DNA from: Kocuria palustris
GTDB lineage: Bacteria > Actinomycetota > Actinomycetes > Actinomycetales > Micrococcaceae
Direction of reading: 5' to 3'
Assembly: GCF_016907795.1 (NCBI RefSeq)
Contig: NZ_JAFBCR010000001.1
Coordinates: 2,046,001-2,110,000, forward strand
DNA length: 64,000 nt
Numbering within the stretch: position 1 is the first letter of the stretch; every line of letters begins with the position of its first letter. A program made the translations under genes and the position numbers. Below are positions 1,340-57,466 of the stretch, in pieces. A model generated the notes under the pieces. The model had not been told where the DNA came from. It made no database searches and saw only the letters and a program-made list of their open reading frames with translations.

Positions 1340-3478
1340 ATGACGGATTCGCACGCCCACCACCATGGTGGAGCCTCGCCCTTACGCGAGGCCCCCACCC
1401 CCGATCACCCCCACGATTCCCAGGACGAGCACTCGGGTGACGGCGGCCACGAGGGAAACGGTGACCATGGAGGCCATGGTGGACATGACCACGTCGCCAT
1501 GTTCCGCCGCTTGTTCTGGATCTCCCTGGTCATCTCGATCCCCACGATCTTTCTCAGCGGCAGCTTCGCGCACCTGCTGGGCTACCAGTTGCCGGACAAC
1601 GCACTGATCACCTGGGTCCCCGTGATCCTCGGCACCGTGCTCTACGTCTGGGGCGGCCGCCCGTTCCTGACCGGTGCGGTCGACGAACTCCGGCAGCGCA
1701 AACCCGGCATGATGACCCTGATCACCCTGGGCATCTCGGTGGCGTTCTTCGCATCCTGGGGCAGCCACCTCGGGCTGCTGCCACCGGACCTGGAGTTCTG
1801 GTGGGAGCTGGCACTGCTGGTCGTGATCATGCTGCTGGGGCACTGGGTCGAGATGGCGTCTCTGGCCCGCACCTCCAACGCGCTCGATGAGCTCGCGGCC
1901 CTGCTGCCCGACGAGGCTGAGGTGCTCGACCCTGACGGCTCGACGCGAACGGTCGCGCCCTCGGACCTCGCCGTGGGCGACCGCGTGCTGGTCCGTCCGG
2001 GCGGACGCATCCCCGCCGACGGTGAGGTGGTCGAGGGTGCGGCCGACGTGGACGAGTCCATGGTCACCGGCGAGTCGGTGCCCGTCACGCGCGGGCGGGG
2101 TGACCGGGTCGTGGCCGGCACCGTGGCCACCGATCGACCGCTGACCCTCGAGGTCACCGAGATCGGCGAGAACACGGCCCTGGCCGGTATCCAGCGCCTG
2201 GTCCAGGACGCTCAGTCCTCCTCGACCCGCGCCCAGCGCCTGGCCGACAAGGCGGCGAACCTGCTGTTCTGGTTCGCCCTCCTCGCTGCCGCGATCACCG
2301 CCGTCGTGTGGGCGATCCTCGGCACACCCAGCATGGCGCTGGTCCGTGTTGTCACCGTCCTGGTCATCGCCTGTCCCCACGCTCTGGGGCTTGCGATCCC
2401 GCTGGTCGTCTCGATCTCGACCGGACGGGCCGCCCGCCAGGGCATCCTCGTCTCGGACCGCAAGGCCCTTGAGCTCGTGCGCAGCATCGACACCGTCGTC
2501 TTCGACAAGACCGGCACCCTCACCCTCGGCGAGCCCGCTCTGCTGGGCGTGCAGCTGGCACCAAACGCCCCGGCGGGCATGAACGAGGACCGTCTCGTGG
2601 CCCTCGCGGCCGCGACCGAAGCGCAGAGCCAGCACCCTCTGGCGCGGGCGATCGTGGCCGCCGCACAAGACCGTAACCTTGCCGTGCCGCAGGCCACCGG
2701 CCACGACAGCGCGACCGCGGTCGGCGTCTCGGCCACCGTCGAGGGCACCGACATCCGCGTCGGTGGCCCCGCGCTGCTCAGCCAGGCCGGTGCGGAGCCG
2801 CTGTTCACCGACGAATGGGCTCAGGACGGGCGGATCGTTCTGCACGTCCTCGTCGAGGGCCGAGTTGCCGGGGCCCTAGCCTTGGCCGACGAGGTCCGTC
2901 CGGCCGCCCGCGAGGCGATCGAGGCCCTGCACCGCCTGGGGATCGAGACGGCGATGCTGACCGGCGATGCCCACAACGTCGCCGAGGCCGTTGGCCGCGA
3001 ATTGGGCATCGACCGCATCGAGGCTCAGGTCCGTCCCGAGGAGAAGAGCGCCCGGGTCCGCCAGTTGCAGGAACAGGGCAAGAAGGTCGCGATGGTCGGC
3101 GATGGTGTGAACGATGCTCCGGCTCTGGCCCAGGCCGATGTCGGGCTCGCGATCGGCGCCGGAACCGACGTCGCGATCGCCTCGGCCGGGATCATCCTCG
3201 CCTCCGAGGATCCGCGCGCGGTGGTCTCGGTCGTGCGGCTCTCGCGCGCCTCCTACCGCAAGATGGTGCAGAACCTCTGGTGGGCTGCCGGCTACAACCT
3301 GATCTCGGTGCCGCTGGCAGCCGGTGTGCTGGCCCCCATCGGGTTCGTCATGCCCATGGCCATCGGCGCGCTGCTCATGGGCGCCTCTACGGTGGTGGTC
3401 GCGCTCAATGCGCAGACGCTGCGCGGCCTCGACCTCACCGCTGAGGGGTCGGTCGAATGGGCAAAGAATCAGACCTGA
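1340..3478 (+). CDS. copB: Copper-translocating P1B-type ATPase, CopB subtype
   Basis: A 712-residue membrane pump for copper export. It begins with a His-rich cytosolic tail (residues 5-51, many HH/HGG repeats) instead of CxxC metal-binding domains, then helix pairs, the actuator motif TGES (243-246), the ion-path motif CPH (345-347), the phosphorylation site DKTGT (Asp389), HP (432-433), TGD (541-543) and the hinge GDGVND (587-592). CPH with a His-rich N-terminus defines the CopB branch, as opposed to CPC CopA pumps. The start follows GAGGAGG by about 6 bases. The CsoR-like operator just upstream and the copper genes on both sides support copper, though silver is also possible. All catalytic motifs are present, so it should be active. 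Confidence 0.93.
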   Translation: MTDSHAHHHGGASPLREAPTPDHPHDSQDEHSGDGGHEGNGDHGGHGGHDHVAMFRRLFWISLVISIPTIFLSGSFAHLLGYQLPDNALITWVPVILGTVLYVWGGRPFLTGAVDELRQRKPGMMTLITLGISVAFFASWGSHLGLLPPDLEFWWELALLVVIMLLGHWVEMASLARTSNALDELAALLPDEAEVLDPDGSTRTVAPSDLAVGDRVLVRPGGRIPADGEVVEGAADVDESMVTGESVPVTRGRGDRVVAGTVATDRPLTLEVTEIGENTALAGIQRLVQDAQSSSTRAQRLADKAANLLFWFALLAAAITAVVWAILGTPSMALVRVVTVLVIACPHALGLAIPLVVSISTGRAARQGILVSDRKALELVRSIDTVVFDKTGTLTLGEPALLGVQLAPNAPAGMNEDRLVALAAATEAQSQHPLARAIVAAAQDRNLAVPQATGHDSATAVGVSATVEGTDIRVGGPALLSQAGAEPLFTDEWAQDGRIVLHVLVEGRVAGALALADEVRPAAREAIEALHRLGIETAMLTGDAHNVAEAVGRELGIDRIEAQVRPEEKSARVRQLQEQGKKVAMVGDGVNDAPALAQADVGLAIGAGTDVAIASAGIILASEDPRAVVSVVRLSRASYRKMVQNLWWAAGYNLISVPLAAGVLAPIGFVMPMAIGALLMGASTVVVALNAQTLRGLDLTAEGSVEWAKNQT

Positions 3479-43827: not shown

Positions 43828-44322
43828 TTAGGCGGTGACCTGTCGCTTGGACGAGATGACGCCCGTGTTGAAGCCGGCCAGGTGCAGCCCGCCGTGGAAG
43901 CGGGCGTGCTCGATCTTCACGCAGCGGTCCATCACGGCGTTGAGCCCGGCGTCCTCGGCGATCCGCGCGGCTTCCTCGTTCCAGGAGCCCAGCTGCATCC
44001 ACACCGTCTTGGCGCCGATGTCCACGGCCTCCCGGGCCACGCCGGGCAGGTCGGCGTCCTTGCGGAAGACCTCCACCAGGTCCGGGACCACGGGCAGGTC
44101 GGCCAGCGAGGGGTAGACCTTCTGCCCCAGCACCTCGTCGAGCACGGGGTTCACGAAGTAGACGTCGTACGGCGACGATGACAGCAGGTAAGTCGCCACG
44201 AAGTATGACGCGCGCGAGGGCTTGTTCGACATCCCGACGATCGCGATGGACTTCGTGGAGCGCAGGATGTTCAGGCGCTCGGGGGCGCTGGGGCCCACCC
44301 AGGTGCGGTTCTGGCTGCTCAT
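43828..44322 (-). CDS. CoA-binding-domain protein (YccU-like)
   Basis: 164 residues with a single Rossmann CoA-binding domain: SIAIVGMSNKPSRASYFVATYLL (27-49), FVNPVLDEVLGQKVYPSLADLP, and KTVWMQLGSWNEEAARIAEDAGLNAVMDRCVKIEH. Proteins like this often sit beside metY. The start overlaps the metY stop as ATGA. It may sense acyl-CoA; function unproven. Confidence 0.87.
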   Translation of the reverse strand: MSSQNRTWVGPSAPERLNILRSTKSIAIVGMSNKPSRASYFVATYLLSSSPYDVYFVNPVLDEVLGQKVYPSLADLPVVPDLVEVFRKDADLPGVAREAVDIGAKTVWMQLGSWNEEAARIAEDAGLNAVMDRCVKIEHARFHGGLHLAGFNTGVISSKRQVTA

Positions 44323-45644
44323 GCGGAGGCTCCTTCGCGGGTGATGCCCGTGGCGGTGGTGAGGGCCTGATCGAGGTCCCACAGGATGTCGTCGGCGTCC
44401 TCGAGACCCACGGAGATGCGGATGAGGTCCGGGCCCACGCCTCCTGAGACGAGCTGCTCGGCGGTGAGCTGCTGATGCGTGGTGGAGGCCGGGTGCAGCA
44501 CCAGGGTGCGGGCGTCGCCGATGTTGGCCAGATGGGAGGCCAGCTGCAGGCCCTCGATGAACCGGCCGCCCACCTCGCGGGCGTCGAGCTCGGCGGTGGC
44601 GGCCACGCCGAAGGCGAAGACCGAGCCGGGGCCCTGCGGCAGGTACTTCTGCGCGCGCTCGTGATGCGGGTGCCCGGGCAGCCCCGCGTAGTTCACGTAG
44701 GAGATGCGCGGGTCCGATTCCAGCCACTCGGAGACGGCCTGGGCGTTGGCCACGTGGGCGTCGATGCGCTGCGGCAGCGTCTCCACGCCCTGGAGCAGGT
44801 TCCAGGCCGACTGCGGGGACAGGGCCGGGCCGATGTCGCGCAGCTGCTCGGAGCGCAGCTTGGTCAGGAAGCCGTACTCGCCGAAGTTCCCCCACCAGCT
44901 CACGCCGTTGTAGGACGGCACCGGCTCCGTCATGGAAGGGAACTTCCCGCTGCCCCAGTCGAAGCGCCCGGACTCGACGACGACGCCGCCCAGCGTGGAG
45001 CCGTGCCCGCCCAGGAACTTGGTGGCCGAGTGGATCACGATGTCCGCACCGTGCTCGAAGGGCCGGTTCAGGTACGGGGTGTTCAGCGTGGCGTCCACGA
45101 CCAGCGGGATCCCGGCCTCGTGGGCCACGGCCGCCAGCCCCTCCAGATCGGCGATCTCGCCCGACGGGTTCGCGATCAGCTCGGTGTACACGGCCTTGGT
45201 CTGCGGCGTGAGGGCGGCCCGGAAGTCGGCGGGGTCGGTGCCCTGCACGAACGTGGTCTCCACGCCGAAGCGGCGCAGGGTGACGTCGAGCTGGGTGACC
45301 GTGCCGCCGTAGAGCTGGGACGAGGCCACGATGTGATCGCCCTGCCCGCACAGCGCGGCGAAGGTGATGAACTCGGCGGCCATGCCCGAGGCGGTGGCCA
45401 CGGCGCCGATGCCGCCCTCCAGGGAGGCCACGCGCTCCTCGAAGGCCGCGACCGTGGGGTTGCCGATGCGCGAGTAGATGTTGCCGTACTTCTGCAGGGC
45501 GAACAGGTTGGCGGCGTCATCGGCGTCCTTGAACACGAACGAGCTGGTCTGGTAGATCGGCACGGAGCGGGCCCCGTGCTGGGCATCGGGAGTCCCGCCT
45601 GCGTGCAGCGCACGGGTGCGGAATCCGAACTGGTGCTCGGCCAT
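44319..45644 (-). CDS. metY: O-acetylhomoserine sulfhydrylase
   Basis: 441 residues. PLP enzyme of the Cys/Met metabolism family; the 430-440 length and TRALHAGG start fit MetY. YSRIGNPT (58-65), ATASGMAA, and the PLP lysine in SATKFLGGHGS (Lys209). It joins sulfide with O-acetylhomoserine to give homocysteine. It is encoded in the leftward sulfur cluster downstream of acetyl-CoA synthetase and the ssu genes, whose 5' leader carries a SAM-I riboswitch. Repression by its pathway end product is therefore expected if co-transcribed. Confidence 0.92.
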   Translation of the reverse strand: MAEHQFGFRTRALHAGGTPDAQHGARSVPIYQTSSFVFKDADDAANLFALQKYGNIYSRIGNPTVAAFEERVASLEGGIGAVATASGMAAEFITFAALCGQGDHIVASSQLYGGTVTQLDVTLRRFGVETTFVQGTDPADFRAALTPQTKAVYTELIANPSGEIADLEGLAAVAHEAGIPLVVDATLNTPYLNRPFEHGADIVIHSATKFLGGHGSTLGGVVVESGRFDWGSGKFPSMTEPVPSYNGVSWWGNFGEYGFLTKLRSEQLRDIGPALSPQSAWNLLQGVETLPQRIDAHVANAQAVSEWLESDPRISYVNYAGLPGHPHHERAQKYLPQGPGSVFAFGVAATAELDAREVGGRFIEGLQLASHLANIGDARTLVLHPASTTHQQLTAEQLVSGGVGPDLIRISVGLEDADDILWDLDQALTTATGITREGASA

Positions 45645-45751: not shown

Positions 45752-47884
45752 TCAGCCGCGCGCCGAGAAGATCTGCTCGATCGCCTCGAGCGACCCCTCG
45801 TTCTGCAGCGACGAGCGATCGCCCAGCGGCCGCCCCTCGTAGAGCTGGGCGAGCAGGCGCCGGGTGATCTTCCCGGAGCGGGTCTTGGGCAGATCGGGCA
45901 CGGGGATCACCTCGCGCGGCTTGGCGATCGGGCCGATCTCCTGCGCCACATGGGCGCGCAGGGTCTCGCGGACCTCGGCCTCGGGCAGGGCACGGCCTTC
46001 CGAGGTGAGCACCACGCAGGCCAGAACGGCATGGCCGGTCAGCGCATCGGCCACCGGAGCGGTCCCGGCCTCGACGACCAGCGGATGCGTGACCAGCGCC
46101 GACTCGATCTCGATCGTGGACAGCCGGTGCCCCGAGATGTTGATGACGTCGTCGACCCTGCCGAGGATGTAGAGATCGCCCTCCTCGTCGAGCCGGGCGC
46201 CGTCGCCGGCCAGGAACCAGCCGCGCTCGCCGTACTCCGCCCAGTACGAGCTCAGGTAGCGCTGCGGGTCTCCCCACACGGTCCGGGCCATGGACGGCCC
46301 GATCGCATCCACCACGACGAGGCCCTGCTCGCCCGCAGCGACCTCCTCGCCGGCCGCGTCCACCACGCGGGTCGAGACCCCGGGAACGGGGCGCACCGCG
46401 CAGCCCGGCTTGGCCGCGGTGTGCGGGGTGCCCTCGGGGAACGTCCCGGAAGGGGCGAACTGCGGATCGTGGGGCCGGGGCGAGGCCACGCAGGAGCCGG
46501 TCTCGGACTGCCACCAGGTGTCCACGAACGGGACCTCGCCGCGGCCCACCTGCTCGCGCAGCCACCGCCAGGCCTCGGGATTGATGGACTCGCCCACCGA
46601 GCCCAGCAGGCGGATCGAGGACAGGTTCCAGACCTTGGGCAGGCCCTTGGGGAACGCGCCCATGAGCGAGCGGATCAGCGTGGGGGCGGTGTAGTAGGTC
46701 GTCACGCCGTAGCGCTCGATGATGTCGAAGTGCCGGCCGAAGTCCGGGGTGCTCGGAGTGCCCTCGTAGATGACCTCGGTGACGCCGTTGACCAGCGGGC
46801 CGTAGATCTCGTAGGTGTGCGCGGTGACCCAGGCCAGATCGGCGGTGCACCAGTGGACCGCCGAATCCACCTTGGCGGGGTCGTTGACAGCGGAGAGCTC
46901 CTGCGGGCGCAGCACGCCGTGGTCGTCCGGGGCATCCGGCAGCAGGTCGAAGAGCAGCGCGTGCGTGTAGGCGGCCTGGACCAGGTAGCCGCTCATGGTG
47001 TGCACCAGGCCCTTGGGCCTGCCGGTGGTCCCGGAGGTGTAGATGATGAACAGCGGCGTCTCGGCGTCGAAGGCCTGCGCCTCGTGGACGTCGGAGACCG
47101 ACTCGAGCAGCTCGTGCCACCACAGGTCCCGGCCCTGGGTCCAGGGCAGCTCCATCTGGTCCTTGGAGCGCGCCCCGCGCTTGCCGGCCGGCAGCTTCGC
47201 GTTGCCGGGCCGGGAGGTCCGGCGCACCACGAGCACGTGCTCGATCGCGTTGGTGCCGGCACACGCTTCATCTGCCTGGGCCTTGACCGGCACCACCTTG
47301 CCGCGGCGGTTCTGCCCGTCGGTGGTGACCAGGACCTTGGCGCCGGTGTCCTCGACGCGGAAGCGCAGCGCCTCGGCGGAGAAGCCTCCGAAGACCAGTG
47401 AGTGCACCGCCCCGATCCGGGCGCAGGCCAGCGTGATGATCACGGTCTCCGGGATCACCGGCAGGTAGATCACCACGCGGTCGCCCTGGACCACGCCCAG
47501 CGACTCCAGCGCGTTCGCAGCCCGGGCCACGGCCTTCTGCAGGTCGGCGTAGGTCCAGGTCTGGCGGTCGCCGGGCTCGCCCTCGAAGTGCAGGGCCACG
47601 TGCGAGCCGCGCCCGGCCTCCACATGGCGGTCCACGCAGTTGACGGCGACGTTGAGCTTGCCGCCCTCGAACCAGGCGATCTCGGGTACCGAGTAGGTGG
47701 GGCTGCCGTCGTCGTCGGTGCCGATCCGCTGCGGCTTGTCGAAGCGGTGCGTCGTGTGCCACGGCTGCGCCCAGTCCAGGCGGGAGGCCTGCTCGGCCCA
47801 GAAGGCCACGCGCGCCTCATCGGAGATCCGCGCGGGATTCGGCGTGGGGGCCAGGGGATCGGAGTAGGACTGCGTTGCGCTCAT
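45752..47884 (-). CDS. acs: Acetyl-CoA synthetase (AMP-forming)
   Basis: 710 residues, about 60 more than usual. YTSGTTGRPKG (282-292) binds ATP; WWQSETGS, RVDDVINISGHR and the C-terminal PKTRSGKITRR, whose last Lys is the acetylation-controlled residue, are present. An added stretch of about 25 residues (LLPDAPDDHGVLRPQELSAVND) lies before WCTADLAW. It makes acetyl-CoA, which can be used to acetylate homoserine. Gaps of 73 and 107 bases connect it to ssuC and metY on the same strand. Confidence 0.92.
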   Translation of the reverse strand: MSATQSYSDPLAPTPNPARISDEARVAFWAEQASRLDWAQPWHTTHRFDKPQRIGTDDDGSPTYSVPEIAWFEGGKLNVAVNCVDRHVEAGRGSHVALHFEGEPGDRQTWTYADLQKAVARAANALESLGVVQGDRVVIYLPVIPETVIITLACARIGAVHSLVFGGFSAEALRFRVEDTGAKVLVTTDGQNRRGKVVPVKAQADEACAGTNAIEHVLVVRRTSRPGNAKLPAGKRGARSKDQMELPWTQGRDLWWHELLESVSDVHEAQAFDAETPLFIIYTSGTTGRPKGLVHTMSGYLVQAAYTHALLFDLLPDAPDDHGVLRPQELSAVNDPAKVDSAVHWCTADLAWVTAHTYEIYGPLVNGVTEVIYEGTPSTPDFGRHFDIIERYGVTTYYTAPTLIRSLMGAFPKGLPKVWNLSSIRLLGSVGESINPEAWRWLREQVGRGEVPFVDTWWQSETGSCVASPRPHDPQFAPSGTFPEGTPHTAAKPGCAVRPVPGVSTRVVDAAGEEVAAGEQGLVVVDAIGPSMARTVWGDPQRYLSSYWAEYGERGWFLAGDGARLDEEGDLYILGRVDDVINISGHRLSTIEIESALVTHPLVVEAGTAPVADALTGHAVLACVVLTSEGRALPEAEVRETLRAHVAQEIGPIAKPREVIPVPDLPKTRSGKITRRLLAQLYEGRPLGDRSSLQNEGSLEAIEQIFSARG

Positions 47885-47957: not shown

Positions 47958-48854
47958 TCAGGTCCGGCGCACTGCGCCCCAGCGGGCCTGGACCCAGCGC
48001 TCGAACAGCCCGAGCAGGGCGTCGGTGAGCTTGCCCAGGATCGCCAGCAGGACGATGGCCAGCAGCAGGCGGTCGGTGCGCCCGTTGTTCTGGGAGTCGG
48101 TGAGCAGGAAGCCCAGGCCCATCGAGGAGCCGAGCAGCTCGGCGGCCACCAGGAACAGCCAGGCCTGGGCCAGGGCCAGGCGCAGGCCGGAGATCACAGA
48201 GGGCATGACCGCCGGCAGCTGGACGGTCAGCAGCAGGCGCAGACCGGAGAAGCCGAAGGATCGGGCGGCCTCCACGAGATGGCGGTCGACCTCCCGCAGA
48301 GCGGCCGAGACCGTGGTGAACACGGGGAAGAACGCGCCGATGGCCACCAGGGTCACCTTGGAGTTCTCGCCGATCCCGATCCACAGCAGCAGCAGCGGCA
48401 CCCACGCCAGCGACGGCACAGCGCGCAGCGCCCCGATCAGCGGCGAGCCCAGGGCGCTGGCCCAGGGGGAGAGCCCGATCAGGGCGCCCACGGCCAGCCC
48501 GAGCAGCGAGCCGATCACGAATCCGACGACCACGCGCTGGGTCGAGATCCCGATGTGGGTCCACAGCGCCCCGTCGGCCAGCAGCTCGCCACCGGCCTGC
48601 AGGACCGCCAGGGGACGCGGCAGCTGCACCGGGGAGAACGTGCCGTTCGTGGACAGCAGCTGCCACAGCGCGAGCAGTGCCACCGGCAGCAGCAGGCCCA
48701 GGCCGACCCGGGCCCAGGGGCTGCGCAGGATGGAGCCCCGCGGGGCGGGGGTGCGGACCGAGCGCTGCGAGTCCGGACGCTGGGAGCCGGGACGGTCGGA
48801 GCCCGCGGGCTCCGGAGCCTCGGAGGCTGGTGCGGAGGTGGTCGTGACGCTCAT
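47958..48854 (-). CDS. ssuC: Sulfonate-type ABC transporter permease
   Basis: 298 residues with six helices and the BPD inner-membrane motif EAARSFGFSGLRLLLTVQLPAVMPSVISGLR (EAA loop, about 175-205). FLVAAELLGSSMGLGFLL is typical of the SsuC/TauC group. Start overlaps the binding-protein stop by ATGA. Substrate (sulfonate, taurine, nitrate-like) is inferred from the SAM riboswitch and monooxygenase beside it. Confidence 0.85.
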   Translation of the reverse strand: MSVTTTSAPASEAPEPAGSDRPGSQRPDSQRSVRTPAPRGSILRSPWARVGLGLLLPVALLALWQLLSTNGTFSPVQLPRPLAVLQAGGELLADGALWTHIGISTQRVVVGFVIGSLLGLAVGALIGLSPWASALGSPLIGALRAVPSLAWVPLLLLWIGIGENSKVTLVAIGAFFPVFTTVSAALREVDRHLVEAARSFGFSGLRLLLTVQLPAVMPSVISGLRLALAQAWLFLVAAELLGSSMGLGFLLTDSQNNGRTDRLLLAIVLLAILGKLTDALLGLFERWVQARWGAVRRT

Positions 48855-49897
48855 GCGCTGTGCCCTTCGATGATCTCGGCCGCGCGATGGGCGCTGGCCT
48901 CCTGCGCGAACCGCGCGTCGAGGATGGTGTCGATGGCCTTCTGGACGGTCTCCAGGTCGGGGACGTCACCGGTCTCCACGAGGATCGGGGCGATGCGCTC
49001 GAGGACCTCGAGCTGGTCGTCGCCGGGGACCGGGTCGATGTCAAGGTGCGTGCGCTCCCAGACCCGCTCGGCCGTCGTCGTCTCGATCTCGGAGGCCTCG
49101 GCCAGGATCGCGATGCCCTCCTGGGGGTTCTCCAGCGCCCAGGCGCGGGCGTGGGCGTAGACGTCCACGACCATCTGGGCCCCGCGCGGGTTGATCTCCA
49201 GGAACAGCTCGCGGGCGTTGAGGAAGCAATAGGTGTTGAAGGCCAGGTCGCGCTGGAACAGCACCGCCCCGTCCTGCTCGGCGCCGGCCATGATCGGGTC
49301 GAGCCCGGACCAGGCGTCCACCTGCCCGCTGGTCAGGGCGGAGCGGCCGTCGGCGTGCTGGAGGTTGACCACGGTGGTCTCGTCGAAGCCCATATCCGCC
49401 GCTGATAGCGCCTGCAGCAGGAAGAAGTAGGGATCCGTGCCCTTGGTGGCCGCCACCGACCTGCCGCGCAGATCCTCGACCGAGCGCAGGGGCGAGTCCG
49501 CGGTGCGCACGAGTGCTGCCCACTCCGGCTGGGAGCAGATGTCGATCGCGCGGATGGGGGAGCGGTTGGTGCGCGCCAGCAGCGCGGCCGAGCCCGCGGT
49601 CGAGCCGATGTCGATCGCCCCGCCGCGCAGGAACTCGTTGGCCTTGTTGGACCCGGCCGAGAACGTCCAGTGGACCTCCTGGCCGCCCTCGGCGGCGACG
49701 GTCTCCAGCCAGCCCTTCTCGCGGATGATCAGCGACAGCGGGTTGTAGGTCGCGTAGTCCAGGTAGATCTCGGTGTCCGAGCCGGCGGCCATGCCGCGGC
49801 CCGGGCCCTCGCCCTCCATGACGCACCCGGACAGGGGCGCGGCGGCGGCCCCGACGGCGGCCAGGCCCAGCAGGCGACGACGCGTCAGCCCGCTCAT
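48851..49897 (-). CDS. ssuA: Sulfonate-type ABC substrate-binding lipoprotein
   Basis: 348 residues. Twin-arginine lipoprotein start (LTRRRLLGLAAVG, lipobox LSGC, Cys about 25). The mature part is SsuA/NMT1-like: IYLDYATYNPLSLIIREKGWLE, GSNKANEFLRGGAIDIGSTAGSA and AATKGTDPYFFLLQAL. It captures the substrate outside the membrane for SsuC/B. Overlaps both neighbours by ATGA. Confidence 0.85.
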   Translation of the reverse strand: MSGLTRRRLLGLAAVGAAAAPLSGCVMEGEGPGRGMAAGSDTEIYLDYATYNPLSLIIREKGWLETVAAEGGQEVHWTFSAGSNKANEFLRGGAIDIGSTAGSAALLARTNRSPIRAIDICSQPEWAALVRTADSPLRSVEDLRGRSVAATKGTDPYFFLLQALSAADMGFDETTVVNLQHADGRSALTSGQVDAWSGLDPIMAGAEQDGAVLFQRDLAFNTYCFLNARELFLEINPRGAQMVVDVYAHARAWALENPQEGIAILAEASEIETTTAERVWERTHLDIDPVPGDDQLEVLERIAPILVETGDVPDLETVQKAIDTILDARFAQEASAHRAAEIIEGHSA

Positions 49898-50694
49898 GCC
49901 TCCACGCCCAGCAGGCCGAGCAGGTGCCTGCGGGCACCCGTCAGCTCGGGATCATCGCGATGGCGCGGGCGCGGCGAGTCGACCGTGAGGATCTCCTGGA
50001 TGCCCGCCGGCCCGCCCTCCGGCGGCGTCCCGAGCACGACCACGCGGTCGGAGAGCACCAGGGCCTCCTCGACGTCGTGGGTGACCAGCAGGACCGTCGT
50101 GGGATCGGCGGCGTGGATCTCCAGCAGCAGGTCCTGCATCTTCAGGCGCGTCAGTGCGTCGAGCGCGCCGAACGGCTCGTCGAGCAGCAGCACCTGCGGG
50201 TTGCGCGCCAGCGCCCGAGCCAGCGAGGCCCGCTGCGCCATGCCTCCGGAGATCTCCGACGGGCGATCCTCCGCATGCCTGGACAGCCCGACCAGCTCGA
50301 GCAGGTGGGCCACCCGCTGCTCGGCCTCGAGGCCGCGCACGCCGCGCGGCAGTCCGAGCGCCACGTTGCGGGCCACGGTGCGCCACGGCAGCAGCCGCGG
50401 CTCCTGGAAGCCCACCGCGCAGCGGGGGTCCAGGCCGCGCACGGGCGCGTCGTCGATCAGGACCCGGCCGGCCGTGGCGGTGCCGAGACCGGCCACCGCG
50501 CGCAGCAGGGTGGACTTGCCGCAGCCCGACGGGCCCAGCACGGAGACGATCTCCCCGGGGCGGACCTCGAAGCTGACATCGGCCAGGACGTCGCGCCGGC
50601 GGCCCCCGGAAGACGGGAAGGACTTGCCGACCCGGTCGAAGGTCAGGGAGGCGGCATCGACCGTGCTCAGGGCGGACGGGGGTGCAGAGATCAT
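49894..50694 (-). CDS. ssuB: Sulfonate-type ABC transporter ATPase
   Basis: 266 residues. Walker A GPSGCGKST, Q-loop VGFQEPRLLPWRT, signature ISGGMAQR, Walker B VLLLDEPFGALDALT and H-loop LVTHDVEEAL. ATG 50694 is chosen because GGAG lies 7 bases before it; a GTG one codon upstream is possible. That GGAG is part of the 3' strand of the SAM riboswitch base stem, so translation can be blocked by SAM. First gene of the leftward operon. Confidence 0.9.
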   Translation of the reverse strand: MISAPPSALSTVDAASLTFDRVGKSFPSSGGRRRDVLADVSFEVRPGEIVSVLGPSGCGKSTLLRAVAGLGTATAGRVLIDDAPVRGLDPRCAVGFQEPRLLPWRTVARNVALGLPRGVRGLEAEQRVAHLLELVGLSRHAEDRPSEISGGMAQRASLARALARNPQVLLLDEPFGALDALTRLKMQDLLLEIHAADPTTVLLVTHDVEEALVLSDRVVVLGTPPEGGPAGIQEILTVDSPRPRHRDDPELTGARRHLLGLLGVEA

Positions 50695-50702
50695 CACATC
50701 AC

Positions 50703-50797
50703 TCCATCGGTCCTGGCATTAGCACCTTGTGCCGCGGATGGACGGCACTGGTTGCTGCGGCGTCGACGAGCCAGGTCTCTCGGCCGCTCCGGATGGG
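50703..50797 (-). promoter_or_regulatory. SAM-I (S-box) riboswitch
   Basis: On the minus strand: CCATCCGG, P2 GCGGC with the kink-turn CGAGAGA, CCTGGCTCG loop, GCCGC-AGCAACC, a P3 hairpin (GTGCCG...CGGCAC), AAGGTGCTAATGCCAGG and the closing CCGATGG. These match SAM-I in order, with CCTGG able to pair with CCAGG as the pseudoknot. The closing stem directly abuts GGAG, the ssuB ribosome site, so control is probably translational. Confidence 0.85.
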
Positions 50798-50913
50798 AAC
50801 CGGGGGTCATTCAATGCCCTGGTCCGGGGAGACAGCAAATCGGAGGACGAGCGGGGCAACGCGCGGCACGGGCTTCGCACTGTCGCCTCAGGTGTGCATG
50901 TGATGACGCTCAC

Positions 50914-50995
50914 ACGATCAAGAGTTCCGGCCCACAGCCCTGGCTGGCCGGACGGCAACCCTCTCCCGTAGCGGGGTGCCCCAGGTGAGGATCGG
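50914..50995 (+). promoter_or_regulatory. SAM-IV-type riboswitch
   Basis: P1 CGATC/GATCG (50915-50919, 50990-50994). GAGTTCCGGCC pairs with GGCCGGA around AGCCCTGGCT; then CGGCAACCC, a small P3 (CTCCCGTAGCGGGG) and GTGCCCCAGGTGA. The ACGGCAACCC...GGGGTGCCCCRGGTGA frame is that of actinobacterial SAM-IV RNAs. It precedes the monooxygenase by 118 bases; GCGTGC...GCACGC (51018-51041 region) could belong to the expression platform. Confidence 0.8.
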
Positions 50996-51112
50996 GCCGC
51001 TCGCTAGACCGCGTGCGGCAAGTACGGCGCACGCACGCGCTGGACCCGCAGGTTGGCCGCGGTATGAGCGGCGCACGGGGCGTGGGTCTGTACTTCTCAG
51101 GAGCAGCCTTCT

Positions 51113-52534
51113 ATGGCCAAGCGGATCTCCCTGAACGCCTTCGACATGACCTGCGTGGATCACCAGAGCTTCGGGCTGTGGCGCCACCCGCGCTCGCGGG
51201 CCACGGAGTACAACACGATCGAGTACTGGACGCACCTGGCCCAGGTGCTCGAGCGGGGCCGCTTCGACGCCCTGTTCCTGGCCGATGTGGTTGGCATCTA
51301 CGACATCTACCGCAACTCGGCCGCCCCCTCGATCGCCGACGGCGCGCAGGTCCCGGTCAACGATCCGTTCATGCAGATCTCCGCCATGGCCGCGGTGACC
51401 CAGAACCTCGGCTTCGGCGTGACCAGCGCGGTCACTTACGAGCAGCCGTACACGCTGGCCCGCAAGTACGCGACGCTGGATCATCTGACCCGCGGGCGCG
51501 TGGGCTTCAACGTGGTGACCTCCTACCTGCCCTCGGCCGCCGAGAACCAGGGTCTGCCCACGCAGATCGAGCACGACGAGCGCTACGAGCTCGCCGAGGA
51601 GTTCCTCGACGTCTGCTACAAGCTGTGGGAGGGCTCCTGGGAGGACGACGCCGTCGTGAAGGACGTGGAGCGCGGGATCTACGCCGATCCGGCCAAGGTC
51701 CACCCGATCCAGCACCAGGGCAAGCACTTCTCGGTGCCGGGTGCGGCGCTCACCGAGCCCAGCCCGCAGCGCACGCCGCTGATCTTCCAGGCCGGGGCGT
51801 CCTCGCGCGGTCAGGCCTTCGCCGGCAAGCACGCAGAGGCCGTGTTCATCGGCGCCCTGCGCCCGGACCTCACCCGGTACATGACCGACCGGATCCGCGA
51901 CAAGGTCGAGGCCGAGGGGCGCGATCGGAACGACGTGAAGATCTACGCGATGCTCTCCGTCGTGGTCGACGAGACCGACGAGAAGGCCCAGGCCAAGTAC
52001 CGCGAGTACCAGAGCTATGCCAACCTGGAGGCCTCGCAGGCCATCATCGGCGGCTGGTCCGGGCTGGATCTGTCCAAGTTCCAGGAGGACGAGGTCCTGA
52101 ACTACGTCAAGACCGAGGCCATCCAGTCCTTCCTCACTCCGTTCACCATGCAGGACGGGGCCAAGCAGTGGACCCGCGAGGAGATCGCCCGCCACTGCGC
52201 GATCGGCGGCATGGGCGATGTGGTCGTGGGCTCGCCGCAGACCGTGGCCGATCAGCTCGAGACCTGGATCGACGAGGGCGGGCTGGACGGGATCAACCTG
52301 GCCTACCACGTGTCCCCGGGCTCGTTCGAGGACTTCGTGGAGCACGTGGTCCCGGAGCTGCAGAAGCGCGGCCGCTACCGCACGGACTACGACGGGCCCA
52401 CCCTGCGCGAGAACGTCTACGGCGCCGGGCAGACCAAGGTGCTCGACACCCACCCGGCGGCCAAGTACCGCGGGGCCTACGTGGGCAGGCCGTCCACGGC
52501 GGACACCCCGTCGCGGGATCTGTCGCAGAGCTGA
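51113..52534 (+). CDS. LLM-class flavin-dependent monooxygenase (NtaA/SnaA/DszA-like)
   Basis: 473 residues. Bacterial-luciferase-like TIM barrel of the NtaA/SnaA/DszA group: RISLNAFDMTCVDHQSFGLWRHP, FDALFLADVVGIYD, VTYEQPYTLARKYATLDHLTRGRVGFNVVTSYLPSAA, and LIFQAGASSRGQAFAGKHAEAVF for FMN binding. Members use FMNH2 and O2 on organosulfur or chelator substrates. With a SAM-IV riboswitch upstream and the ssu operon on the other side, desulfonation or sulfone cleavage is the likely job. It needs a flavin reductase, not seen in the window. Confidence 0.87.
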   Translation: MAKRISLNAFDMTCVDHQSFGLWRHPRSRATEYNTIEYWTHLAQVLERGRFDALFLADVVGIYDIYRNSAAPSIADGAQVPVNDPFMQISAMAAVTQNLGFGVTSAVTYEQPYTLARKYATLDHLTRGRVGFNVVTSYLPSAAENQGLPTQIEHDERYELAEEFLDVCYKLWEGSWEDDAVVKDVERGIYADPAKVHPIQHQGKHFSVPGAALTEPSPQRTPLIFQAGASSRGQAFAGKHAEAVFIGALRPDLTRYMTDRIRDKVEAEGRDRNDVKIYAMLSVVVDETDEKAQAKYREYQSYANLEASQAIIGGWSGLDLSKFQEDEVLNYVKTEAIQSFLTPFTMQDGAKQWTREEIARHCAIGGMGDVVVGSPQTVADQLETWIDEGGLDGINLAYHVSPGSFEDFVEHVVPELQKRGRYRTDYDGPTLRENVYGAGQTKVLDTHPAAKYRGAYVGRPSTADTPSRDLSQS

Positions 52535-55946: not shown

Positions 55947-57263
55947 TCAGTCGGGCAGCGGACCCGACCGATCTGGCTCGGGGCCGAGCAGCCCGCCGAA
56001 GGCCACCAGGAGCCCGCCCACCGCGAGCACCGCGGCGATCGCCGCGTGCGGCCCGAGCAGCTGCTGCAGCGGCGGCAGGTAGTAGGGGTAGAGCGCGGGC
56101 AGCACGATCGAGATGCTGTAGGCCACCCCGTATCCGCTGGCCCGGATCTCGTCGGGGAAGCGCTCCGTCAGATAGGCGCCCACCGGCCCGTAGCCGGTCA
56201 CCGTCGTGACCTGCAGCGCGGCTGCCAGCAGCAGCACCGTGCCGATGCCGGCTCCGAGGGCCCCGGACAGCAGCGCCAGGAGGATGACGGGGGAGACCGC
56301 TGCGCAGAGCAGCCCGAAGCCCACGAAGAACCGGCGTCGCCCGATCCGACTGGACAGCGCCCCCGCCCCGGCCATGGCCAGCGCGGACACGGCCGTCGCG
56401 CCCAGCATGACGAGGGAGACGGTCTGCGGCTCGAGCTGCGGCATGCGCGAGAGCTGGGCGGTCAGGGTGGGCACTGCCATGTAGGTGAGCAGCCACAGCC
56501 CGGTCATCAGCACGAGGACCTGCCACAGCGACCGGCGGCTGCTGCCCCTGACGAGCTGCGCCAGCGGGTGCGCCGAACGGGCCGGGCGCCGGCGCTGCGG
56601 AGCCTCCTCGACCATGAGGCGGTAGTAGATCAGCATGGCAGCGGCCAGGGCGGCGCCGAGCAGGAACGGCAGCCGCCAGCCCCAGGCGGCGTACTCGCTG
56701 TCGTCCAGCAGCAGCAGGAGGAGGAAGGTGACGGCGGCGATGCTGGCGTTGGCCAGCGGCGACATCGCCATGATCATCCCGCTGAGACGACCGCGTGAGC
56801 GCGGGCGCGCCCACTCCATGGCCAGCGGGATCGCCGAGGTGTACTCCCCGCCCAGGAAGATCCCGCCCAGGAGGCGCAGCGCCAGCACCGCCAGGAACGT
56901 GCCCGCGCCGAGCACCTCGTGCCCGGGGACCAGGGCGATCAGCAGGGTCGTGAGGCAGATGCCGGCGAGGGCGACCTGGGTGATGAGCACCCGGCCCGCG
57001 CGGTCGGCGATCGGACCGAAGATCATGGCCCCGAGCGGGCGGCCCAGCAGGGTGGCCACGAAGATCAGGCCGGCATTGCGCACGATGTCATGATCGCCGA
57101 ACAGCTGCGCCGACACCGGAGCCAGGGCGATCACGGGCAGGAAGATGTCGAACTGGTCGACGTAGTTGCCCATGATCCCGCCGCGGATCGCGCGGCGAGT
57201 CGGTGCGGGAGGGCGCCCGTCGGAGGATGCGGTCGCGGGGGCGGACAGGGGTGCAGAAGGCAT
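55947..57263 (-). CDS. MFS transporter of the MHS type, predicted thiamine-related
   Basis: 438 residues, 12 helices. GNYVDQFDIFLPVIALAPVSAQLF replaces the usual WxDFY opening; GRPLGAMIFGPIADRAGRVLIT and GGIFLGGEYTSAIPLAMEWARPRSRG are metabolite-H+-symporter motifs. Its leader is a TPP riboswitch, so it is predicted to import thiamine or a precursor such as HMP or the thiazole. No known thiamine transporter family matches, making it a candidate new carrier. Confidence 0.85.
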   Translation of the reverse strand: MPSAPLSAPATASSDGRPPAPTRRAIRGGIMGNYVDQFDIFLPVIALAPVSAQLFGDHDIVRNAGLIFVATLLGRPLGAMIFGPIADRAGRVLITQVALAGICLTTLLIALVPGHEVLGAGTFLAVLALRLLGGIFLGGEYTSAIPLAMEWARPRSRGRLSGMIMAMSPLANASIAAVTFLLLLLLDDSEYAAWGWRLPFLLGAALAAAMLIYYRLMVEEAPQRRRPARSAHPLAQLVRGSSRRSLWQVLVLMTGLWLLTYMAVPTLTAQLSRMPQLEPQTVSLVMLGATAVSALAMAGAGALSSRIGRRRFFVGFGLLCAAVSPVILLALLSGALGAGIGTVLLLAAALQVTTVTGYGPVGAYLTERFPDEIRASGYGVAYSISIVLPALYPYYLPPLQQLLGPHAAIAAVLAVGGLLVAFGGLLGPEPDRSGPLPD

Positions 57264-57271
57264 CGAGCTCT

Positions 57272-57357
57272 CACTTCCTTCGCCGGTATGAACCGGAGCA
57301 GGTTCGACGGTCGAAGCCGCGTCAGCTTCCTCTCAGCCCGTGCCCGGGCTCCCGTGT
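57272..57357 (-). promoter_or_regulatory. TPP riboswitch (THI element)
   Basis: On the minus strand: CACGGGAGCCCGGGCACGG, GCTGAGAGG (pyrimidine-sensor CUGAGA), GACCGTCGAACCTG (pyrophosphate-sensor arm), CTCCGGTTCATACCGG and CGAAGGAAGTGAG. These are the THI conserved blocks in order. The GGAAG end overlaps the ribosome site 8-13 bases before the ATG, pointing to translational repression by thiamine pyrophosphate. Confidence 0.92.
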
Positions 57358-57466
57358 GGGGTCATTCAGCGGTGCAGGTCCCACGACCTGCGCGCCGCAC
57401 CGTCGATCCTAGCGGTGCGACGGGCTCGCGTGGCCGAGACCCGAGCATGTGAGGCACAGTGAGGGC

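Follow-up and report, generated by a model that had tools for sequence, protein, structure and literature searches.

Divergent SAM-I-type and SAM-IV riboswitches at an organosulfur-scavenging locus of Kocuria palustris: two classes, one expected ligand and a probably historical difference

The divergent sulfur locus of Kocuria palustris considered here lies in a stretch of 64,000 nucleotides (RefSeq assembly GCF_016907795.1, contig NZ_JAFBCR010000001.1, positions 2,046,001 to 2,110,000 of the forward strand), hereafter called the window, and raises the question of why one locus should employ two classes of SAM riboswitch. A preliminary description had placed a SAM-I-type aptamer on the minus strand before ssuB and a SAM-IV-type aptamer on the plus strand before a flavin monooxygenase, had regarded them as unlike RNAs, and had seen no reason for one locus to use both.

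The search with cmscan (Rfam 15, gathering thresholds) gave one full-length match to each class at the locus (Table 1). SAM-IV (RF00634) was matched on the plus strand with 98.9 bits (cut-off 38 bits; E 6.8e-17), and SAM-I (RF00162, the S box) on the minus strand, at 50693-50799, with 57.1 bits (cut-off 44.4 bits; E 1.5e-10). A search of the whole genome (one contig, 2.90 Mb) with an E limit of 0.001 returned three matches to SAM-I and four to SAM-IV, each site of the window being matched by one model only, and the SAM-I-IV model (RF01725) gave no match in this genome up to E 10. The two classes at one divergent locus, the 116 bases between them, which equal the gap between the Rfam matches, and the identity of the flanking genes, which was confirmed by protein family searches, therefore all stand as first described. 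The binding pocket of the two classes was reportedly recognized as shared by Weinberg in 2008. Rfam places SAM-I and SAM-IV in one clan, and a binding pocket in common is described in PMC6890682, so that the RNAs are less unlike than had been supposed and the same ligand is expected for both.

Table 1. Coordinates of the genes and RNA elements of the divergent locus within the window
Feature	Position	Strand	Basis or remark
O-acetylhomoserine/O-acetylserine sulfhydrylase (metY-like)	44319..45644	-	TIGR01326 above cut-off
Acetate--CoA ligase (acs-like)	45752..47884	-	NF001208 above cut-off
SsuC-like permease	47958..48854	-	Best match SsuC model, below its cut-off
SsuA-family substrate-binding protein	48851..49897	-	TIGR01728 above cut-off
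SsuB-like ABC transporter ATPase	49894..50697	-	ABC_tran; best matches nitrate and sulfonate ATPase models, below their cut-offs
ssuB Shine-Dalgarno GGAG, first two bases within P1	50702..50705	-	Sequence
P1 3' strand GATGG	50704..50708	-	36-site alignment
SAM-I-type aptamer, P1 to P1, without P4 helix	50704..50796	-	Rfam match; P1 register from 36 aligned sites
PK-1 3' strand CCAGG	50712..50716	-	3 bases from P1 in the window
PK-1 5' strand CCTGG, P2 loop	50771..50775	-	36-site alignment
P1 5' strand CCATC	50792..50796	-	Paired in every cell of 36 sequences
Spacer of 116 bases between Rfam matches; both promoters expected inside	50800..50915	.	Rfam coordinates
SAM-IV aptamer	50916..51030	+	Rfam
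PK-2 5' strand CCGTA, P3 loop	50966..50970	+	Sequence comparison of SAM-IV sites
PK-2 3' strand TACGG, 3' tail	51023..51027	+	Sequence comparison of SAM-IV sites
Possible hairpin 5' strand GACCCGC, downstream of aptamer	51043..51049	+	Weak support
Possible hairpin 3' strand GTGGGTC	51082..51088	+	Weak support
Monooxygenase Shine-Dalgarno AGGAG	51099..51103	+	Sequence
NtaA/DmoA-family FMN-dependent (luciferase-like) monooxygenase	51113..52534	+	TIGR03860 above cut-off; Bac_luciferase

The spacer contained no match to the sigma-70 consensus, and a consensus scan of 50600-51200 for promoters and terminators found neither. The closest named relative of the monooxygenase is a 92 % identical protein of Kocuria palustris, and no relatives were found among viral contigs. 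Judged by eye from N-terminal letters, the genes behind the other two SAM-I sites of the genome are metF and a metE-like gene, and those behind its other three SAM-IV sites encode two PLP enzymes of Cys/Met metabolism and a binding lipoprotein of the methionine type.

The architecture of the minus-strand element was established by aligning 36 sites chosen from Micrococcaceae, which showed that the 3' end of the Rfam match is about 11 bases too long and reaches the start codons. Like the canonical S box, the element possesses P1 (CCATC/GATGG), P2a, P2b, PK-1 and the core letters, and of the 648 cells at the positions of these helices 99.5 % hold standard pairs, a value that falls to 33–34 % when the partner is slid by one column. 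In PK-1, 98.9 % of the cells are paired and two of the five pairs are changed on both sides. The 17 cells changed on both sides were not equalled in any of 500 shuffles; the number of pairs so changed (three) and the number of pair types (ten) are unexceptional, as 77 and 73 of 500 shuffles, respectively, were as high. The covariation is located in P2a and PK-1 and is absent from P1, which is nearly invariant and is backed by its constancy.

What distinguishes the element from canonical SAM-I is the lack of P4, a helix that, according to PMC6890682, belongs to SAM-I and is missing from SAM-IV. Only five bases lie between the PK-1 letters GCCA and P1 (three to six in relatives), and the PK-1 3' strand ends so close to P1 that there is no room for this helix. 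P4 is likewise absent from 79 of 81 Micrococcaceae SAM-I sites (distinct sequences, some below the Rfam cut-off); 68 show the corresponding spacing by pattern, 11 of the remaining 13 have the same layout by eye, and the two left over (L192:8431 and L202:2578) both score below the cut-off. The hairpin was recovered in five of six Bacillaceae controls, the sixth not being placed by the search, and an insert of hairpin size was seen by eye at the P4 position in all 30 phylum-wide SAM-I loci, which are the best-scoring matches and thus favour P4, and of which two printed stretches begin inside the insert. One Kineococcus site also lacks P4.

Since P4 is missing, the minus-strand RNA could be envisaged as a SAM-clan relative with altered affinity or a different ligand, and not as SAM-I in function, a view to which the contrast between the Micrococcaceae sites and the Bacillaceae and phylum-wide loci lends some weight. 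However, P1, P2, PK-1 and the GCAACC/GGUGC core are all intact, and the adjoining genes (ssu, acs and metY, as well as metF and the metE-like gene at the other sites of the genome) belong to sulfur and methionine metabolism, which makes such a functional departure very improbable. The element also differs from SAM-I/IV (RF01725), a further relative that shares the ligand pocket and, according to PMC6890682, has no PK-1. The RNA is best termed SAM-I-type, being an Rfam SAM-I match without the canonical peripheral helix. A literature search, several parts of which yielded mainly unrelated papers, found neither a divergent SAM-I/SAM-IV locus nor a P4-less actinobacterial SAM-I; as far as that search goes the P4-less aptamers are new, although they may already be known. 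A compact SAM-I of this kind would show how little periphery SAM sensing requires.

The proposal that the closing stem of the SAM-I element runs into the ssuB ribosome site was borne out, as P1 ends on the two bases with which GGAG begins. In-frame ssuB starts are found at GTG 50697 and ATG 50694, the latter 7 bases after GGAG. The placement of a Shine-Dalgarno sequence in the 3' side of P1 is a design of SAM-I already documented in PMC2258182. Of the 34 listed leaders before ssuB or acs, GATGG merges with GGAG in 33 and with GGAAG in the remaining one; at other SAM-I sites of the genus, such as the one before the metE-like gene, the sequence after GATGG is often AAAGGA or lacks a clear site, and the overlap is not universal across the SAM-I sites of the genus. 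In constrained folding, which ignores tertiary contacts and ligand energy, enforcing the aptamer lowered Shine-Dalgarno access in 14 of 34 SAM-I leaders (mean unpaired 0.28 free vs 0.33 bound) and in 11 of 31 SAM-IV leaders (0.44 free vs 0.48 bound; a 32nd leader with no recognized Shine-Dalgarno was left out). No consistent drop of access on binding was thus obtained for either class by this method; the anatomy of the SAM-I element fits occlusion.

The plus-strand aptamer shows no notable difference from SAM-IV. PK-2, the hallmark of the class, can form in 30 of the 31 sites examined (the exception being L007), in the complementary versions CCGCG:CGCGG (26 sites), CCGTA:TACGG (three, including the window) and CCGTG:CACGG (one). 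The aptamer of the window ends 82 bases before its gene. A candidate platform hairpin in this interval (GACCCGC/GCGGGTC) is complete, at seven pairs, in 16 of the 18 Kocuria rows, with one paired change, in L101; it was set aside, as 8 to 89 of 100 shuffles within single sequences do as well, and the five non-Kocuria rows of its alignment are poorly aligned. Two further observations concern these platforms. A CACGGGG-like stretch (51074-51080 in the window) is retained in many Kocuria rows, and its ACGGG could rival the tail in pairing with the P3 loop (CCCGT). In Rothia sp. P100 (L012), inspection by eye showed a hairpin and then a run of U after SAM-IV.

Whether the pair is maintained in relatives, as the preliminary description had asked, was answered affirmatively for Kocuria. 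The orthologous monooxygenase (at least 73 % identity) occurs in 21 of 27 genomes of the genus, in pieces in one of them (G308), and in all 21 it is directly preceded by SAM-IV (20 detected by cmscan, that of G308 separately) and accompanied, less than 3 kb away, by a divergent SAM-I on the opposite strand. The gap between the two elements is 95–208 bases in nine genomes, 630–886 in four and 1435–2892 in eight, and where other DNA intervenes each leader stays beside its own operon. The divergent SAM-I heads ssuB in 14 of the 21 genomes and acs in seven, where acs directly follows; these seven include G243, the closest relative of the window. Both classes are also common in the family, as SAM-IV was matched in 394 of 395 Micrococcaceae genomes (all 394 over the cut-off) and SAM-I in 311 (270 over the cut-off). 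A second divergent pair was noted in G281 (L182), in which SAM-I at 2616-2714 (-), with 40.7 bits and below the cut-off, precedes metY and SAM-IV at 2823-2937 (+) precedes another gene, with a gap of 108 bases. Separate SAM-I leaders for acs and for metY within a single module are seen in several genera (L188, L192 and L202, some below the cut-off), and on this evidence one sulfur module can apparently carry four or more SAM switches.

Such constancy might reflect selection for the combination itself, in line with the idea advanced earlier; differing SAM thresholds or regulatory steps would then turn off uptake and oxidation in order. The occurrence of the pair at all 21 Kocuria monooxygenase loci is in keeping with this idea, as are the pairs in Rothia sp. 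P100 and G002 (gap 175), a pair in G032 (gap 231; SAM-I 39.5 bits, below the Rfam cut-off) that adjoins a different monooxygenase clade, and the dissimilar platforms, one aptamer ending in the Shine-Dalgarno sequence and the other well ahead of its gene. On the other hand, among 31 other genera, each represented by one genome, a divergent pair within 300 bases occurs in only two (G002 and G032), and even in Kocuria the elements are 630–2892 bases apart in 12 of 21 genomes. At two of the three g3 loci (L205 and L207), SAM-IV has no Rfam SAM-I for about 1.5 kb around it, and in L010 and L013 it stands alone in 7.4 kb. Conversely, six genomes (G001, G007, G016, G021, G027 and G030) carry SAM-I on the ssuB side as well as on the monooxygenase side, at varying distances and not always adjacent, although in G007 the ssuB-side match reaches only 35.0 bits, below the cut-off. 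In Rothia santali (L011 2680-3010), ssuB is led by SAM-I and the orthologous monooxygenase by no Rfam riboswitch. Taken together, these loci render a selected combination unlikely.

The riboswitch class that precedes this monooxygenase family changes between lineages, which, as far as is known here, is a new observation. SAM-I stands directly before the gene (within about 320 bases) in nine genera (g2, g4, g5, g7, g11, g16, g21, g27 and g30) and SAM-IV in four (g1, g3, g31 and g32); the others have no riboswitch in that position, including g25 and g15, in which SAM-IV lies about 1.4–1.5 kb upstream, before a transporter-like gene. A tree of 62 monooxygenases (29 with SAM-IV, 14 with SAM-I, 19 with none) requires four changes of the SAM-IV label, three of them forced by starred branches, and a single SAM-IV clade was rejected both for all 62 rows (p-AU 6.15e-8) and for the 43 riboswitch-led rows (5.1e-5). 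The tree leaves out duplicates or near copies (L008, L009, L014, L018, L096, L104, L105 and L238), a fragment (L108), a protein of 45 % identity (L234), additional monooxygenases in some genomes, and the other outside relatives, of which only part were scanned for RNAs. The clade of the window protein comprises Kocuria, g3, Rothia and one Canibacter record and is led by SAM-IV except in Rothia santali; its next relatives have no riboswitch. Members of the other clade, about 50–57 % identical to the window protein, have mostly SAM-I or none, and SAM-IV in g31 and g32, whose rows fall within a well supported group of 23 in which the other members have SAM-I (11 rows) or no riboswitch (six rows). 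As G030, G038, G062 and G116 hold both clades, these are probably paralogues, and the second clade gives the clearest view of a change of class.

One way in which such a change could come about is conversion in place, whereby the SAM-IV leader of the monooxygenase would have evolved from a SAM-I leader by gaining P5 and PK-2, a route suggested by the shared cores and by local SAM-I elements that already lack P4. The clan and pocket common to both classes (PMC6890682 for the pocket) and the nesting of the g31/g32 SAM-IV monooxygenases in a group rich in SAM-I leaders are compatible with it. Against it, a donor is readily at hand, given the near-universal SAM-IV of Micrococcaceae and the three other SAM-IV places in the genome of the window. 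Moreover, the SAM-IV leaders of the g31 monooxygenases do not group with those of g32 in an aptamer tree (47 SAM-IV sequences) but, with support of 98/96, with g25 and g5 SAM-IV leaders that are not directly before a monooxygenase, a related one lying about 1.4 kb further down; only this grouping was used, the tree being otherwise poorly resolved (8 of 44 inner branches starred, bootstrap unsettled). Conversion in place is accordingly considered improbable. In L281 and L238 (G025 and G015), SAM-IV precedes the transporter-like gene and a related monooxygenase follows about 1.4–1.5 kb downstream; these leaders are a possible source of the SAM-IV leaders of g31.

The locus is probably best understood as an organosulfur-scavenging module that is co-repressed by two SAM-responsive OFF switches, one per operon, with a class difference that is historical and arose from leader exchange. 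On the minus strand, SAM binding would close P1, and with it half of the ssuB Shine-Dalgarno sequence, so that the uptake operon would not be translated; SAM bound to the SAM-IV aptamer of the plus strand would turn down the flavin monooxygenase via its putative expression platform, so that high SAM would silence both the uptake and the oxidation arms. SAM-clan leaders would act as exchangeable modules in Micrococcaceae, the monooxygenase having presumably acquired a SAM-IV leader beside an ssu/acs operon that has SAM-I. Under co-repression with leader exchange, the combination as such would have no special role. The earlier puzzlement over the use of both classes is much reduced, because each leader is tied to its own operon, both classes occur widely in the family, the ssuB and monooxygenase sides are each provided with SAM-I in six genomes, and the class before the monooxygenase varies by lineage. 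Confidence in this reading is slightly lowered, and that in a selected combination slightly raised, by the fact that the putative g25/g5 donors also have a monooxygenase further downstream. In addition, the riboswitch-free nearest relatives of the window's clade give no sign of an earlier SAM-I state, and the presence of the pair in every Kocuria genome with the orthologue would fit selection for the pair as well.

A broader formulation, which can be offered only tentatively, is that a P4-less SAM-I subclass, whose P1 doubles as the ribosome site before ssu and acs, and SAM-IV replace one another as plug-in leaders of a common set of sulfur genes. If so, a single monooxygenase family under SAM-I, SAM-IV or none would amount to a natural swap experiment on riboswitch class. 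Leader exchange, if true, would mean that the class is partly interchangeable and informs on history as well as on function, and would provide matched natural cases, namely monooxygenases under SAM-I, SAM-IV or none, some of them beside a constant SAM-I ssu operon.

The service of one locus by two SAM-binding classes has a precedent in tandem riboswitches, of which PMC9481103 lists 149 that join SAM-II and SAM-V and nine that join SAM-II with SAM-I/IV. Whereas those tandems are arranged in series on one transcript, the aptamers described here lie on opposite strands and diverge, so they do not share a transcript and do not constitute a tandem riboswitch; they serve two operons and are both members of the SAM-I clan. 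The accessible text of a survey of contiguous riboswitches (PMC12452182) names no divergent SAM-I/SAM-IV pair. What remains special about the locus is that it offers a natural series for testing leader exchange. Outside the locus, the window also contains a TPP riboswitch at 57258-57365 (-), with 64.6 bits, which heads an MFS transporter gene (55947-57263) and makes the latter a candidate thiamine-related transporter.
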